DNA of 64,000 nt from Arcobacter sp. (lineage in GTDB: Bacteria; Campylobacterota; Campylobacteria; Campylobacterales; Arcobacteraceae): assembly GCA_020048055.1 (NCBI GenBank), contig JAIFNA010000003.1:62001-126000 (forward strand), read 5' to 3'. A program made the position numbers and the translations under genes. Shown in pieces: positions 18,307-24,007 of the stretch (its first letter is position 1; the number at the start of each line of letters is the position of its first letter). Under the pieces are notes generated by a model that searched no databases, had not been told where the DNA came from, and was given only the letters and a program-made list of their open reading frames with translations.

Positions 18307-18906
18307 TTACAAAATACAATACCCCTCATCGATAACATTTCTAATAACATCCTCTTCAAGTTTACCTCTAAGTCGTCTTATCAATGCTCGAAGTCCGTCC
18401 AAAGTCATCGTTTTATTTTCATATACCGCTTCATCTATATTGGCATAAGTAGTTACTAAACCTTTATTTTCAACCAAAAGCATTAAAAATCTTCTCTCTT
18501 TTTTTGACAAAGTTGTATTTGGTTTGAGTTTTATCTCTTTGAGATTTTCACTCAGATTTGAAAAATGTAAATCTATTTTTAACCGCAATTCTTCCAAATG
18601 AAATGGTTTTTTAAGATAATCAATACAGCCAAAATTGTAGGCGCTTTTGATTGTTTGGATGTCAATATTGGATGAGATGATGATGATTTTTGCATTTTTT
18701 GATTGATTTTGGATGAGTTGTAAAAGTTCAAGTCCAGAGATATTTGGAACATTGATATCCATAATATACAAGTCATACATCGAATCGATTGCATCAATCA
18801 CATCATTGCCATCATAAAAAACATCAACACTATATCCACTATAATGAAGTGCATCACATATCGATTTATTTAAAGCTATATCATCTTCAAGGAGTAAAAT
18901 TTTCAT
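18307..18906 (-). CDS. Response regulator, OmpR-like
   Basis: 199 residues. The receiver domain has acidic residues Glu7, Asp8 and Asp9, phosphoacceptor Asp50 (in YIMDINVPN), and the conserved Lys100 (LKKPF). The short C-terminal part (about 130-199) is a compact winged helix with LDGLRALIRRLRGKL as the likely recognition helix. It pairs with the kinase gene directly upstream (14-bp gap). There is no Shine-Dalgarno sequence before the ATG. Instead, a palindrome and a -10 box at 18912-18947 would start transcription at the A of the ATG. It probably binds that palindrome and those at 20637 and 21797. Confidence 0.9.
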   Translation of the reverse strand: MKILLLEDDIALNKSICDALHYSGYSVDVFYDGNDVIDAIDSMYDLYIMDINVPNISGLELLQLIQNQSKNAKIIIISSNIDIQTIKSAYNFGCIDYLKKPFHLEELRLKIDLHFSNLSENLKEIKLKPNTTLSKKERRFLMLLVENKGLVTTYANIDEAVYENKTMTLDGLRALIRRLRGKLEEDVIRNVIDEGYCIL

Positions 18907-18911
18907 AATGA

Positions 18912-18950
18912 TTTATAGCATTATGAAATGTCATCGGAATGACATTTGAA
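18912..18950 (-). promoter_or_regulatory. Palindromic operator and -10 box of the response regulator gene
   Basis: Perfect inverted repeat with 9-bp arms, AAATGTCAT (18926-18934) and ATGACATTT (18939-18947), spacer of 4. On the minus strand it reads TTCAAA-N1-GTCAT-N4-ATGAC, then exactly 12 bp, then TATAAA (18917-18912). The same arrangement occurs at 20628-20668 and 21788-21828. The site lies in the last codons of the kinase gene. The predicted start point coincides with the regulator ATG. Confidence 0.7.
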
Positions 18951-20690
18951 CAGATAGATAAAAATATTTTCATTTTTTTCATTATTTTTACTATTTGAAA
19001 CCACATCAAAGATGATATTGTATTTTTGTGAGATATTTTTGACGATATTTAGCCCCAAACCATATCCACCCACAACATTATTTTCTCTGTAATATTTGCT
19101 AAATATCTTATTTGTGTTATCGATTCTTACCCCAAAGTTTTTAAATTGCAGTTTATTTTCTCTAAGGAGTATCTCAATAGTGCTATTTGGAACACTGTAT
19201 TTGATGGCATTTGAGATGTTATTGTCGATAAGCCTTATAAGTTCAGTTTTCGACATCATCACTTGACACTCACTATTGATATCTGAAACTATTTTCCTAC
19301 CGTTCATTGAAGCTATTTTTAAAAAATATTCGATTCTCTCTTCTACAATCTCTTCCAAATCCAAAATCTCCACCACATAATCTTCTGCCCCTTTTTTTAT
19401 CATAAACTCCATATCTTCATACGATTTATGCAAAATCTTCACAGCACTATCGATTTGATTTGAGTATTCATCTTCCCCAAGTTGAGCTTTTTTTAAATCG
19501 TTATTTAAAGTGATGATGCTTAGTGGAGTTTTGAGTTCGTGCATCGCACTTTGGATAAATCTATCTTGATTGGAAAGCGTTATCTCTTTTGTTCTCACAA
19601 GTGAGATGATAACAATCGCAATAAGCCCAAAAACAGTTAAAATAGCAAACAAATAATCAACATTTTGTATCTCCTGAAGATGTGCAGTTTCATCTAAAAT
19701 GATAGAAAATATTATCGTTGTATCATCAAAGATTGAGCTTTTTGTAGAAAAATAAAGAGCATGAAAGTGGACACCATCTTTTATAAATTCACTTGAATAG
19801 ATAGTTTTCTCTTTGAGTGTAGAGGCTACTTTTTGCCCCTCTTGTATCCTCTTTTGAATCTCCTCTAAAGTTGGCTTATATGATGGAAAATCTTTTAAAA
19901 TCAAATCATTGATAAACCCCGTATTTACTTTGATAAAAGCTTTTGCTTCTACGATATTTGGGTAATTATTTAAAACTTCTCGAATAGACTCTAATTCGAT
20001 TTTGGTTTGTGGGTAGTTGTAGCTAACTTGTAAAATCCCAGCTTTATCTTTTGTGTAGTATGAATCGCTAAATGAGAAGAAATTTTTTGCTGATTTTTCA
20101 AAAATAGGGGTGCTGACACCTATTTGATTATTTGTGAAATGCTCATCAAACTCTCTTTTTGCAAAAGAAAGATTGAAATTCAAATCTTTTAGATAAGTTG
20201 TATTTTTGATAACATACTCTTTGTTTGAGATGTAAATATTATACGGTTTGTTTTTGCACCCTTGATTTATCATATCGTGAATTTGTTTGAGATTTAAAGA
20301 AAGTGGGTCTTGGTTTGAAGTGGCTAGATAATTTAGCACTTTTTGGTGTTTGGTTTCCAAAATATCTTTTTGTTTGGTGTAATCATAAAGCAATTTTGAA
20401 AGCATCCCATCGACATCATTTTTGATTTTGTAAAAGAGTATTTGAGTATCTTTTTCGTGAGATTTTTGGATACTTTTCGTTAAAAGTCTATACCCTACAA
20501 AGTCCAAAACTAAAAATATCAAAACAATAAAAAATATAAATGATGAGAATTTGAGAGTTTTGATTTGAAGCCTTTTTGTAATAGTGTCGTATAAATTAGC
20601 AAAATAGTAGCAAATTTTAACAAAAAACTTCAAAAAGTCATTTCTATGACATTTGAATTCTGTATTATGACTCGTAAAAAATAAAAGCAT
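18921..20690 (-). CDS. Membrane sensor histidine kinase of the two-component system
   Basis: Up to 589 residues. TM1 is at about 49-68, followed by a periplasmic sensor region of about 275 residues and TM2 at about 346-364. There is no obvious HAMP; the H-box is SAMHELKTPLS (His384), with an ATPase domain (NNISNAIKYS, GYGLGLNI) at the C terminus. The start is uncertain: the first 45 residues of this frame look non-native and overlap the plus-strand operator/promoter at 20628-20668, but no good later ATG exists (TTG at 20633 is possible). It forms an operon with the regulator at 18307. The ligand is unknown. Confidence 0.87.
   Translation of the reverse strand: MLLFFTSHNTEFKCHRNDFLKFFVKICYYFANLYDTITKRLQIKTLKFSSFIFFIVLIFLVLDFVGYRLLTKSIQKSHEKDTQILFYKIKNDVDGMLSKLLYDYTKQKDILETKHQKVLNYLATSNQDPLSLNLKQIHDMINQGCKNKPYNIYISNKEYVIKNTTYLKDLNFNLSFAKREFDEHFTNNQIGVSTPIFEKSAKNFFSFSDSYYTKDKAGILQVSYNYPQTKIELESIREVLNNYPNIVEAKAFIKVNTGFINDLILKDFPSYKPTLEEIQKRIQEGQKVASTLKEKTIYSSEFIKDGVHFHALYFSTKSSIFDDTTIIFSIILDETAHLQEIQNVDYLFAILTVFGLIAIVIISLVRTKEITLSNQDRFIQSAMHELKTPLSIITLNNDLKKAQLGEDEYSNQIDSAVKILHKSYEDMEFMIKKGAEDYVVEILDLEEIVEERIEYFLKIASMNGRKIVSDINSECQVMMSKTELIRLIDNNISNAIKYSVPNSTIEILLRENKLQFKNFGVRIDNTNKIFSKYYRENNVVGGYGLGLNIVKNISQKYNIIFDVVSNSKNNEKNENIFIYLFKCHSDDIS
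20628..20668 (+). promoter_or_regulatory. Palindromic operator and -10 box driving the membrane protein gene
   Basis: TTCAAA-N2-GTCAT (20637-20641), spacer TTCT, ATGAC (20646-20650), 12 bp, then TATTAT (20663-20668). About 30 bp are nearly identical to the site at 21788-21828. The palindrome centre would lie near -32, over the -35 region. It points to the gene at 20808 and leaves a leader of about 130 nt. It also lies inside the 5' part of the kinase frame on the other strand. Confidence 0.7.
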
Positions 20691-20807
20691 AGCCTGGAAA
20701 ATTGCTAATTATTTTAATTTGATAGCGATGACACTAAAAGAGTGTGAACATAGAGATAAATTACATAATAGTTAAATATCTCATTAATTTTAAAAGGAAT
20801 GGAGCAT

Positions 20808-21356
20808 ATGGAAGAATATTCAAAAAATGAAGAATTTGGTAATCAAGGAATACATCGAGTTAGAGACCCTTTATCTATTTTGATAGTGTTGGCATTTATT
20901 GCCATGGAAGTATTTGTTGTTTACAAGATGATTGAGGGTTCAAATGGTTTTGGTGGTTTTGGTGATTTTCTAATCATTATTGCAATTTTTGTTTTACCAG
21001 TATTAAGATTAATTGCCATTTGGAACGGGGTCGAGATTGATTATGACAATGGAATATTAACACTACCAGGTGGCGGAATATCAGCTAATTCAATCTTTGA
21101 TTATCTCAATCCTGTATTTATGTTTCAGTATTTCCTTAGAAAAGAAGTAAAACTTAGTGAAATTAAAAGCATCAGCACATCGGTAACTTCAAAAGTATAT
21201 GGTGACAGTGGCAAAAGGATGTATAAATATTTAATATCTATCATAGGTAAATTTGGGGGAATTACATTGACTTATAAAGATGAAAACAAGCGAGATGAGA
21301 TTTATAGTTTGATTAGAGAGATTAATCGAATGGGAACTCCATTTATGCGTTCTTAA
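20808..21356 (+). CDS. Unknown membrane protein with PH-like cytoplasmic part
   Basis: 182 residues. Two hydrophobic segments at about 20-40 and 50-65 are separated by a Gly/Phe loop. The C-terminal 110 residues (from NGVEIDYDNGILTLPGG) have the alternating strand pattern and final helix of bacterial PH-like (YdbS/YcdB-type) domains; this is a fold-level guess. The ATG at 20808 is preferred because AGGA lies 9 bases before it; the ATG at 20799 is too close. It is probably controlled by the adjacent two-component system through the site at 20628-20668. Function unknown. Confidence 0.7.
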   Translation: MEEYSKNEEFGNQGIHRVRDPLSILIVLAFIAMEVFVVYKMIEGSNGFGGFGDFLIIIAIFVLPVLRLIAIWNGVEIDYDNGILTLPGGGISANSIFDYLNPVFMFQYFLRKEVKLSEIKSISTSVTSKVYGDSGKRMYKYLISIIGKFGGITLTYKDENKRDEIYSLIREINRMGTPFMRS

Positions 21357-21453
21357 TCTTAAAATAAGAGTACAAATTTTAGCAAATCAATTTTTATCAA
21401 AAAGCTGATTTGCTTATCTATCACTCCATTTGAAAGAATCTAAGAAAATCAAA

Positions 21454-21698
21454 TTACAATCTTTCTATATGATTTTTGAGTTCATTGATATATTGTGCAT
21501 CAAAAGGTGAATAAACTCCAGTCCCACTTCTATATCTCAACAGCATCGCTGACTTTTTTTGCTTTCTCTGTTGATATTGACGGATAGCCATCATCAAATA
21601 TTGTACAAAAACTCATTAAATCTTTCTTGTATATCGACACCATTTGGGATAAGTTGATTGTAAAGATTATCTTGAACTTGTAAATGTATCGTTTGCAT
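21454..21698 (-). pseudogene. Decayed type II antitoxin gene
   Basis: Starts at an ATG with a good AGGAT ribosome-binding site and reads MQTIHLQVQDNLYNQLI... for 34 codons, then shifts frame near FLYN. It continues as FDDGYPSISTEKAKKVSDAVE, then shifts again into YRSGTGVYSPFDAQYINEL and a proper stop. Removing one base at each break gives an 80-residue protein. The layout resembles small antitoxins of the MQT...FNEF...DDGYPS...YRSG type that I associate with Campylobacterota. No partner toxin frame follows. Both breaks could be sequence errors, but two in 245 bp argue for decay. Confidence 0.65.
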
Positions 21699-21787
21699 TG
21701 ATTATCCTTTTGTTTTGTAGTTTTATGGTAATAACTTAGCTAAGAAATAAGAACAATTTTCTTAATTTTAAAAATTTTTCTCAAAAA

Positions 21788-21828
21788 CTTCAAAAAGTCA
21801 TTTCTATGACATTCCATTTTTGTATCAT
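21788..21828 (+). promoter_or_regulatory. Palindromic operator and -10 box of the lipoprotein gene
   Basis: TTCAAA-N2-GTCAT (21797-21801), TTCT, ATGAC (21806-21810), 12 bp, then TATCAT (21823-21828). Spacing is identical to that at 20628-20668 and on the minus strand at 18912-18950. The leader to the ATG at 21857 is about 22 nt and holds AAGGAG. Confidence 0.7.
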
Positions 21829-21856
21829 CACCTGATTTAAAAAATAAGGAGAAAAA

Positions 21857-23212
21857 ATGAAACTAAAAAATTTAGTACAAACGATGACACTTTCTATTTT
21901 AGCAAGTGCAATGTTAATTGGTTGTGGTGGTGGAAGCGATAGTGCAGCACCAGTAGATGATATACAAACAGGAACTTTTATCGATGCACCTGTAAAAGGG
22001 TTGTATTTTAAAACAGCAACACAACAAGGCTACACAAACGATAGTGGAGAGTTTAGCTATAAAGCAGGTGAAACAGTAGAGTTTAAACTTGGAAATTTAT
22101 CACTAGGAACTGTAAGTGCTGGTGATTTGATTAGCCCTTATAAAATGGCAGGAATTCTAAGTTCTAGTGACAGTAATATTTCAACTAACATAGCATTATT
22201 GCTTCAAAATTTAGATGGCAATAGAACAAATACAGCTATGCTTGATGTGTCAAAATTAAAAGATATGAATTTAAGTGATTTTAATTTATCGGTGGGTAGT
22301 GCCACTTTCGAAACATTATTGTCAAATAAATTAACAGCTGGAAATTTTGATAACTATATTAATTCTAATGATAAATCATTGTTAACGATAGCTACAGTAA
22401 AACAATCTATGAAAACATTTGTCCAATCAAAAGAAGCAGAAATAAACAATCCAACTAAATTGATTGGTAAGTCATATGTCGGAATTGAAGGAAATGATAT
22501 TTTAGGTTACGAAAAAAGAGATTTCACATTGGTTTGGAATGATTCAACAGTAAGCGGAAAATATGAGGGAGACTCGTTTTCTGGAAGCTATACCGTTACA
22601 GCAGATAAAATCATAAAAATAACTTTTGATGATGGCGATACTGATAATATTAAAATTATTGATTTTTCTCCAAATGTAGTTGCAGTTTGTTCAGCAGATA
22701 CTGAAGAAGAGGCAAAAGCTTGTACTGAAGCAACTAGCTATTGGGTGGCATCAAATATTGCAGATACATTTATAGCAACAAAAAATAGTACCTCGACAAC
22801 TATACTAAAAAATAAATCTTTAGTGACAAATTTTAGTGAGTTGCAGAATAAAACATTTGGTCATATAAATGGTCATTCAACATTTTCAATCAATCAAAAT
22901 GGTGATATCTCATCTACCGATTTTGCACAAGGTAATACTTCTTATAAAGCTACATTCAATAATGGTGCTTTAAATATTACTGGGATTGATACATACCAAA
23001 ATAATGAAGCTCTTGATGACACTTATGCAGTCTATAAATATGATTTAACGGGTGCAATACTAAATGAAAAACAATTTAGTCAACTATTTTATAACAATGC
23101 TCAATATAGTAACAAGATTTACACATTTACTAGTGGTAGTATGTATTGTAGTATGTTATGGGATCAATGCTGGCTTGATGAAACAGCTACAGCACAAGCT
23201 AATTCAAAATAA
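21857..23212 (+). CDS. Large lipoprotein of unknown function
   Basis: 451 residues. The signal peptide ends in a lipobox LIGC with Cys23, followed by GGG and an acidic linker, as in outer-membrane lipoproteins. Residues about 38-85 (FIDAPVKGLYF...NDSGEFSYKAGETVEFKLG) match a repeat seen at the N terminus of many marine proteobacterial lipoproteins, a carboxypeptidase-regulatory-like beta sandwich. The remainder is beta-rich with scattered cysteines near 275-290 and 435-440. AAGGAG precedes the ATG. The upstream operator suggests induction by the two-component system at 18307-20690. Role unknown; surface or periplasmic sensing or binding is possible. Confidence 0.8.
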   Translation: MKLKNLVQTMTLSILASAMLIGCGGGSDSAAPVDDIQTGTFIDAPVKGLYFKTATQQGYTNDSGEFSYKAGETVEFKLGNLSLGTVSAGDLISPYKMAGILSSSDSNISTNIALLLQNLDGNRTNTAMLDVSKLKDMNLSDFNLSVGSATFETLLSNKLTAGNFDNYINSNDKSLLTIATVKQSMKTFVQSKEAEINNPTKLIGKSYVGIEGNDILGYEKRDFTLVWNDSTVSGKYEGDSFSGSYTVTADKIIKITFDDGDTDNIKIIDFSPNVVAVCSADTEEEAKACTEATSYWVASNIADTFIATKNSTSTTILKNKSLVTNFSELQNKTFGHINGHSTFSINQNGDISSTDFAQGNTSYKATFNNGALNITGIDTYQNNEALDDTYAVYKYDLTGAILNEKQFSQLFYNNAQYSNKIYTFTSGSMYCSMLWDQCWLDETATAQANSK

Positions 23213-23439: not shown

Positions 23440-23715
23440 ATGGTGGCTTATAGGAGAGATGAGATAATCTCAGCAAGTGAAGTTGCAAGGGGTTTTTCTA
23501 CTATTTTAAATAGTATTGTTGAAAAAACAAAAGATAGATTTGCTATATCTAAAAACAATAAATTAGAAGCAGTTATCATCGATATCAAAGAGTATGAGAT
23601 GCTAAAAGATGCTTATGATAGACTTGAAGATAAAGAAATTAGTGCTATTTTAGCCCAAAGAAGTAGTGAAGACAAAGAGGTGTCTCATTCAAAAATATTA
23701 ACTATTGAACTTTAA
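23440..23715 (+). CDS. Type II antitoxin, Phd/YefM-like
   Basis: 91 residues. The N-terminal segment IISASEVARGFSTILNSI and the following AISKNNKLEAVIIDIKEYEML match the DNA-binding dimer fold of Phd/YefM antitoxins. The acidic, flexible C-terminal half would wrap the toxin. A good ribosome-binding site (AAGGGG) precedes it. The toxin gene begins one base after its stop. It is likely to repress its own promoter through the palindrome at 23410-23427. Confidence 0.88.
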   Translation: MVAYRRDEIISASEVARGFSTILNSIVEKTKDRFAISKNNKLEAVIIDIKEYEMLKDAYDRLEDKEISAILAQRSSEDKEVSHSKILTIEL

Positions 23716-23716
23716 A

Positions 23717-24007
23717 ATGAAACGGGAGATTCAACTTACTTATCTTAAAAGTGCCAAAAAGTTTTTAGATAAAAATAAAAGTATTTTAACCGAAAGTGAA
23801 GTAGATGAGCTTGTTATAAAATTTATCAAAAGTAAGTTTTATGGGATAGATATAAATATCAACTATAAACAACTTCAAGGGGAATGGGATAATTTTTATA
23901 GAATCAGAAAAGGAAATATTCGAGTGATTTTAAGCATTAAAGATGACGAAATAGTTATAGAAGCTATAATTGAGGATATAGGATCTAGAGGAGACATCTA
24001 TAAATAA
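23717..24007 (+). CDS. Type II toxin, RelE/ParE-like
   Basis: 96 residues from the ATG at 23717; a TTG 12 bases earlier lies inside the antitoxin gene. The end pattern FYRIRKGNIRVILSI...VIEAIIEDIGSRGDIY is the typical strand pair and C-terminal box of the RelE/ParE superfamily (IRVI...I..IGhRgdvY). Members cut ribosome-bound mRNA or poison gyrase; sequence by eye cannot tell which. It forms a two-gene operon with the antitoxin at 23440. Confidence 0.87.
   Translation: MKREIQLTYLKSAKKFLDKNKSILTESEVDELVIKFIKSKFYGIDININYKQLQGEWDNFYRIRKGNIRVILSIKDDEIVIEAIIEDIGSRGDIYK

Follow-up and report, generated by a model that had tools for sequence, protein, structure and literature searches.

In Escherichia coli, the OmpR-type response regulator PhoB binds head-to-tail to the direct repeats of the Pho box, which are TGTCAT-like, recur with an 11-bp period, and lie over the −35 region (PMC3348028, PMC4415409). 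Sulfurospirillum, in the same phylum as the bacterium considered here, has an OmpR-type regulator, PceP, that also binds direct repeats over the −35 region; the PceS/PceP system controls genes around its own locus and is proposed to activate itself (PMC7755780). Campylobacter and Helicobacter form leaderless mRNAs from genes whose −10 element lies a few nucleotides before the ATG and which lack a ribosome site, and such genes have switched between leaderless and leadered states during evolution (PMC3847290). In C. jejuni, the −10 element lies 4 to 8 nt ahead of the transcription start, no −35 element is present, and mapping has revealed leaderless ATG mRNAs of the form predicted below (PMC3847290).

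The locus reported here lies in a 64,000-nucleotide stretch of Arcobacter sp. DNA (the window) and probably encodes an uncharacterized OmpR/PhoB-type two-component system with Pho-box-like promoters and a self-activating, leaderless response regulator (RR) gene; we found no earlier description of it in the open literature on Arcobacter regulators. With PhoB it shares the type of regulator and the sequence, period, and position of the repeats. It differs in its dCACHE-like periplasmic sensor, in its predicted surface-protein targets, and in having only three sites, all of them local. We rejected the possibility that the RR is a PhoB orthologue, because it scores 50.6 bits against a curated PhoB cut-off of 296.2. 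Its likeness to PceS/PceP, which in our case is predicted, extends to direct repeats overlapping −35, control of genes around its own locus, and autoactivation; PceS/PceP differs in its repeat (CTATW), its membrane-helix sensor, and its dehalogenation targets. Unlike the Campylobacter and Helicobacter leaderless promoters, that of the RR gene lies inside the upstream kinase gene and carries the RR's own predicted binding site. The features of the locus are as follows.

18307 to 18906, minus strand: response regulator, OmpR/PhoB type (receiver plus winged helix), 199 aa, predicted leaderless (Pfam Response_reg 2.6e-23, Trans_reg_C 1.7e-08)
18912 to 18917, minus strand: −10 hexamer TATAAA of the RR gene, 10 bp after the repeat and 5 nt before the RR ATG
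18928 to 18944, minus strand: direct repeat TGTCAT-TCCGA-TGACAT, the predicted RR site for its own gene, within the 3' end of the kinase gene and kept in L035 and 10 further loci; by pattern reading, GTCATTCCGATGAC at 18943-18930, then 12 bp, then TATAAA at 18917-18912
18921 to 20615, minus strand: sensor histidine kinase (transmembrane helix, dCACHE-like periplasmic sensor, transmembrane helix, HisKA/HATPase); exact start codon unsure
20636 to 20652, plus strand: direct repeat AGTCAT-TTCTA-TGACAT upstream of the PH-like gene; by pattern reading, GTCATTTCTATGAC at 20637-20650, then 12 bp, then TATTAT
20663 to 20668, plus strand: −10 hexamer TATTAT of the PH-like gene, 10 bp after the repeat
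20799 to 21356, plus strand: target 1, a small membrane protein with two transmembrane helices and a beta-rich cytoplasmic part, PH-like by resemblance only
21796 to 21812, plus strand: direct repeat AGTCAT-TTCTA-TGACAT upstream of the lipoprotein gene, in a copied promoter piece; by pattern reading, GTCATTTCTATGAC at 21797-21810, then 12 bp, then TATCAT
21823 to 21828, plus strand: −10 hexamer TATCAT of the lipoprotein gene, 10 bp after the repeat
21857 to 23212, plus strand: target 2, a surface lipoprotein of 451 aa, Shine-Dalgarno sequence AAGGAG

Both RR domains (PF00072 and PF00486) score over the Pfam cut-off, and the best solved relative, 1kgs (5.4e-37), matches over the full length, as do other structures. 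The partner histidine kinase adjoins the RR, and the pair is kept in relatives; HATPase_c (2.9e-09) is over its Pfam cut-off and HisKA (9e-05) just under. No curated full-length family was found for the two-component system, and the kinase sensor has no sequence match in the PDB. In the predicted sensor model (pLDDT 86.6), two PAS-like lobes follow a long N-terminal helix, as in dCACHE domains. Foldseek matched it to dCACHE sensors at 1e-7 to 1e-8, the top structural matches being mostly those of amino-acid chemoreceptors and kinases, with modest TM-scores (0.25-0.5); on this model, the ligand is likely a small molecule. Neither the window (20550-20690, minus) nor L035 (11490-11510, minus) has an ATG at the expected kinase start. 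The aligned position holds an isoleucine codon (ATC or ATA) after a Shine-Dalgarno-like stretch, and a non-AUG start is possible; in L035, the ATA overlaps the stop of the upstream gene (ATAA).

The initial annotation of this DNA, which omitted the kinase gene, the RR site inside it, and the leaderless geometry, had proposed that three promoters sharing a palindrome with fixed spacing to the −10 define a local regulon. All three sites and their hexamers are present where it placed them, with 12-bp gaps. The 1,997,449-base genome contains four exact copies of GTCAT-N4-ATGAC (reversed control, 0): three are those of the window, each 12 bp before a −10-like hexamer, and the fourth lies within a coding gene that reads as soxB. 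The chance that three of four random sites fall inside one 2.9-kb stretch is ∼8e-6. The two plus-strand copies, said to share about 30 bp, have 31 consecutive identical bases and 83% identity over 60 bp, which suggests a promoter piece that has been copied and leaves the two sites only partly independent. Rather than lying between genes, the RR site occupies the last kinase codons (...FKCHSDDIS*). Genome pattern searches found no other credible site elsewhere in the window's genome. In this genome no genes other than those for the RR, the PH-like protein, and the lipoprotein are preceded by an exact site, the remaining matches being coding; we thus found no control of phosphate uptake genes of the kind that marks a Pho regulon. 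We also rejected off-locus matches to TGNCAYN5TGNCAY as extra targets, because all 10 genomic strand-hits, the RR site excepted, are within ORFs; for one of them (L101), in a 64-aa ORF, the call as coding is unsure.

At related kinase/regulator loci, the conserved element is a direct repeat, TGNCAY-N5-TGNCAY (for example, TGCCAC-AATAC-TGACAC), which has an 11-bp period and ends exactly 10 bp before the −10. The sites first gathered for alignment had been picked with the direct-repeat pattern, which biased the alignment; to avoid this bias we scanned 407 kb around related kinases, testing all periods and gaps. TGNCAY pairs numbered 33 at period 11, versus 0, 0, 3, 2, 2, 1, and 2 at periods 8, 9, 10, 12, 13, 14, and 15, respectively; random sequence of the same composition gave a mean of 1.4 and a maximum of 4. 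The gap between repeat and TA(W3)T was 10 bp in 21 cases, versus 0 to 2 at each of 5 to 9 and 11 to 15 bp, and when gaps of 9 to 11 bp were permitted, 33 of 33 sites had 10 bp. A direct-repeat operator with a period of about 11 bp is what would be expected of the OmpR/PhoB family.

Of 104 genomes of the family, about 20 have a full-length kinase with its sensor, which is sparser in other families of the order; in nearly all kinase-bearing genomes, an RR gene follows it. Twenty kinase-bearing genomes hold 39 matches of repeat plus −10 at 10 bp (reversed control, 1), 25 of which are within 8 kb of the kinase by our own count. The window's sites are not among the 39, since each deviates at one position (TATAAA, or the left arm AGTCAT). 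Judged by sequence, the same wiring appears to recur in about 20 related bacteria. Another OmpR-family regulator, PhoB-like for example, might instead use these sites, leaving the adjacent pair as a bystander: at least six further matches to the RR exist in the window's genome, and 20 same-family genomes without a full-length kinase have 25 repeat-plus-−10 matches (control, 2), which suggests that other OmpR-type regulators use similar sites. We think this unlikely, because one genome after another, other families included, has its sites clustered around the kinase-regulator locus, because the RR gene itself carries one, and because the window's genome has no credible site beyond the locus. 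The link of a local regulon to the adjacent two-component system, as first proposed, is supported. Between kinase and regulator, two genomes of another family have a gene for a TonB-dependent receptor (L228:5260-7221 and L229:5455-7353), hinting at a nutrient or metal signal in those two genomes.

The predicted target 1 belongs to no Pfam or NCBIfam family, and its PH-like character stays a resemblance because the structure model is too poor (pLDDT 51). Homologues occur in only three other genomes among 399 of the order. The G072 homologue is oriented divergently to the kinase gene and sits behind a site of four consecutive repeats with an 11-bp period (L086); an outer membrane barrel gene comes after it. 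A transposase-like gene truncates the kinase gene there, with no regulator behind it. The N-terminal ∼200 aa of the lipoprotein (target 2) are widespread in the order, and the N-terminal part of a homologue weakly matches the SslE/AcfD model. In G430, from another family, the kinase gene and the gene for a lipoprotein homologue (45% identity over 190 aa) diverge, and the intergenic site between them reads TGACAT-GTGAA-TGACAT-N10-TATGAT; in G239, a homologue is likewise divergent from a weaker relative of the kinase. Other genomes have site-bearing genes for an autotransporter, an Lcl_C adhesin-like protein, a long flagellin, a FlgE-like protein, and an LprI-type protein. All of these targets are surface or envelope proteins, and the envelope-response system suggested at the outset fits this list of lipoproteins, autotransporter, barrel, adhesin, long flagellin, and LprI as read from sequence.

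Some loci add observations on the promoters themselves. L195 carries two near-identical whole promoters, through the Shine-Dalgarno sequence, before different genes (L195:2053 and L195:4599), a second instance in which promoter copying would have brought a gene into the regulon. At L082 to L085, L087, L090, and L091, a conserved, very small acidic ORF lies behind a repeat-driven promoter divergent from the kinase; its C-terminal end reads ..YDYIDEEFEEDDDxxWIKL, with variants.

We consider it quite likely that the system as a whole works as an OmpR/PhoB-type pair with direct-repeat sites, three activated promoters, and a leaderless, self-activated RR gene. The sequences themselves show the sites, how they are spaced and conserved, and that they go with the kinase-regulator pair; from this we infer binding by the RR, activation rather than repression, the start site, and a signal that is probably a small molecule. 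The phosphorylated RR would bind head-to-tail to the TGNCAY direct repeat (11-bp period) at about −39 to −23 and recruit RNA polymerase to the −10 located 10 bp past the repeat, in the manner of PhoB at the Pho box, so activating three promoters here: its own and those of the genes for the membrane protein and the surface lipoprotein. Against this, the left arm reads AGTCAT rather than TGTCAT at both plus-strand sites of the window, which look like recent copies of one another; the RR site also encodes protein, and the position of a site does not by itself prove activation. Since the repeats overlap the −35 position, the RR could conversely repress by covering that region, giving a negative loop; this reading is as improbable as the bystander, given that the fixed 10-bp gap is the activation geometry of the Pho box, that promoters of C. 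jejuni lack a −35 element that could be blocked (PMC3847290), and that a repressor has no need of such exact phasing.

As for the RR's own promoter, it would lie in the last kinase codons, with transcription starting at or within one base of the RR ATG. In 12 loci (the window, L035, L073 to L081, and L228), the site is present, the −10 ends 5 to 6 nt before the RR ATG, and there is no usable Shine-Dalgarno sequence; the AGGA of L078 lies upstream of the −10 and hence outside the transcript. In another 12 (L082 to L085, L087 to L091, and L231 to L233), the RR has a Shine-Dalgarno sequence and the site is absent. The gap from −10 to ATG is 7 nt in L229, and L072 and L230 have neither the site nor a Shine-Dalgarno sequence. 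A −10 about 6 nt before the ATG with no Shine-Dalgarno sequence, as found for the RR gene, is the mark of a leaderless gene. Given the C. jejuni start spacing and leaderless ATG mRNAs, we predict transcription to start at the RR ATG; on sequence grounds, the RR mRNA is predicted to be leaderless and self-activated, which would form a positive feedback loop. A quick kinase tree needs two changes for the leaderless-type state, one gain and one loss. A yet less probable alternative is that the RR site is merely coding sequence and the RR is translated from a kinase-RR operon mRNA: the two genes are adjacent and the site does encode the kinase C-terminus (FKCH/FNCH), but all synonymous third positions of the site are retained in L035 even though the kinase proteins share only 61% identity, conservation extends beyond the coding part to the −10 and its spacing from the ATG, and site-bearing loci lack a Shine-Dalgarno sequence that relatives without the site possess. 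This conservation supports the proposal that the regulator controls itself.

It is very unlikely that the element is a genuine palindrome recognized by a symmetric dimer, for example a regulator of the CRP/FNR type (5-N4-5): all three window sites are perfect GTCAT-N4-ATGAC inverted repeats, that of the PH-like gene extends to TTCAAA...TTTGAA, and one relative (L228) is also palindromic, yet the strict palindrome gives 2 strand-counts in the 407 kb, both from the single L228 site, against 33 direct repeats, most sites have arms like TGCCAC...TGACAC that are impossible as inverted repeats, L086 has four tandem repeats, and the −10 is on one side only. The window sites look palindromic because their arms read GTCAT and ATGAC, both of which fit TGNCAY or nearly so. 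We therefore rejected the palindrome as the conserved unit; neither the alignment nor the 407-kb scan found arms kept inverted in relatives, as CRP/FNR-type operators would have them. Of the initial annotation, the local regulon stands, and both targets have parallels elsewhere (G072 and G430); the palindrome falls, and the motif conserved with its −10 in orthologous regions is the direct repeat rather than the inverted form. The fixed 12-bp spacing is true in the window, but what relatives conserve is a direct repeat whose end lies 10 bp from the −10. Nor is TTCAAA part of the element: it represents F-K codons at the RR site, and relatives have TTTAAT and others.

Sequence alone thus provides an uncharacterized two-component system with a predicted binding site, the geometry of its promoters, and a regulon open to testing. 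With one gain and one loss on the kinase tree, a leaderless RR promoter embedded in the kinase gene would be an unusual route to positive feedback. More tentatively, the locus may be a transferable, self-activating surface switch, in which operator, promoter, and mRNA start lie in the kinase's last codons, leaderless positive feedback operates, genes join by way of a copied 60-bp promoter piece, and a long flagellin and a FlgE-like hook protein are also driven in relatives; we regard this wider reading as possible rather than likely. If it were true, it would provide flagellar-type genes with one DNA-binding regulator in a group that reportedly lacks RpoN, FliA, and FlgRS, and in which no DNA-binding regulator was found near flagellar loci (PMC9321776). 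We rejected a general flagellar regulator: main flagellins lack the site, and only the locus-adjacent long flagellin and FlgE-like genes have one. The site is missing from 30 flagellin-type loci elsewhere, of which 29 are in relatives and one is an FlgL-like gene of the window's genome. The window's genome, rated 99.99% complete, has flhA/fliI-like and FlgL-like genes (G000:C8:88997-89347, L171); a search with PF00669 found no main flagellin in it.

Between the PH-like and lipoprotein genes, the window contains a broken antitoxin-like reading frame (21440-21700, minus). An intact relative of this frame, with a toxin-like partner gene, lies directly upstream of the kinase in G001 (L035:11492-12023, minus). 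Downstream of the lipoprotein gene, at 23440-24007 (plus), a Phd/YefM-type antitoxin gene is followed by a short gene, possibly its toxin. Scanning genome contigs with the kinase yielded a single locus. Finally, CAMCYD010000016.1 (L041), titled as a Helicobacter pylori PMSS1 metagenome-assembled genome, carries the same kinase as the G001 contig, which belongs to the window's genus; its title looks wrong.
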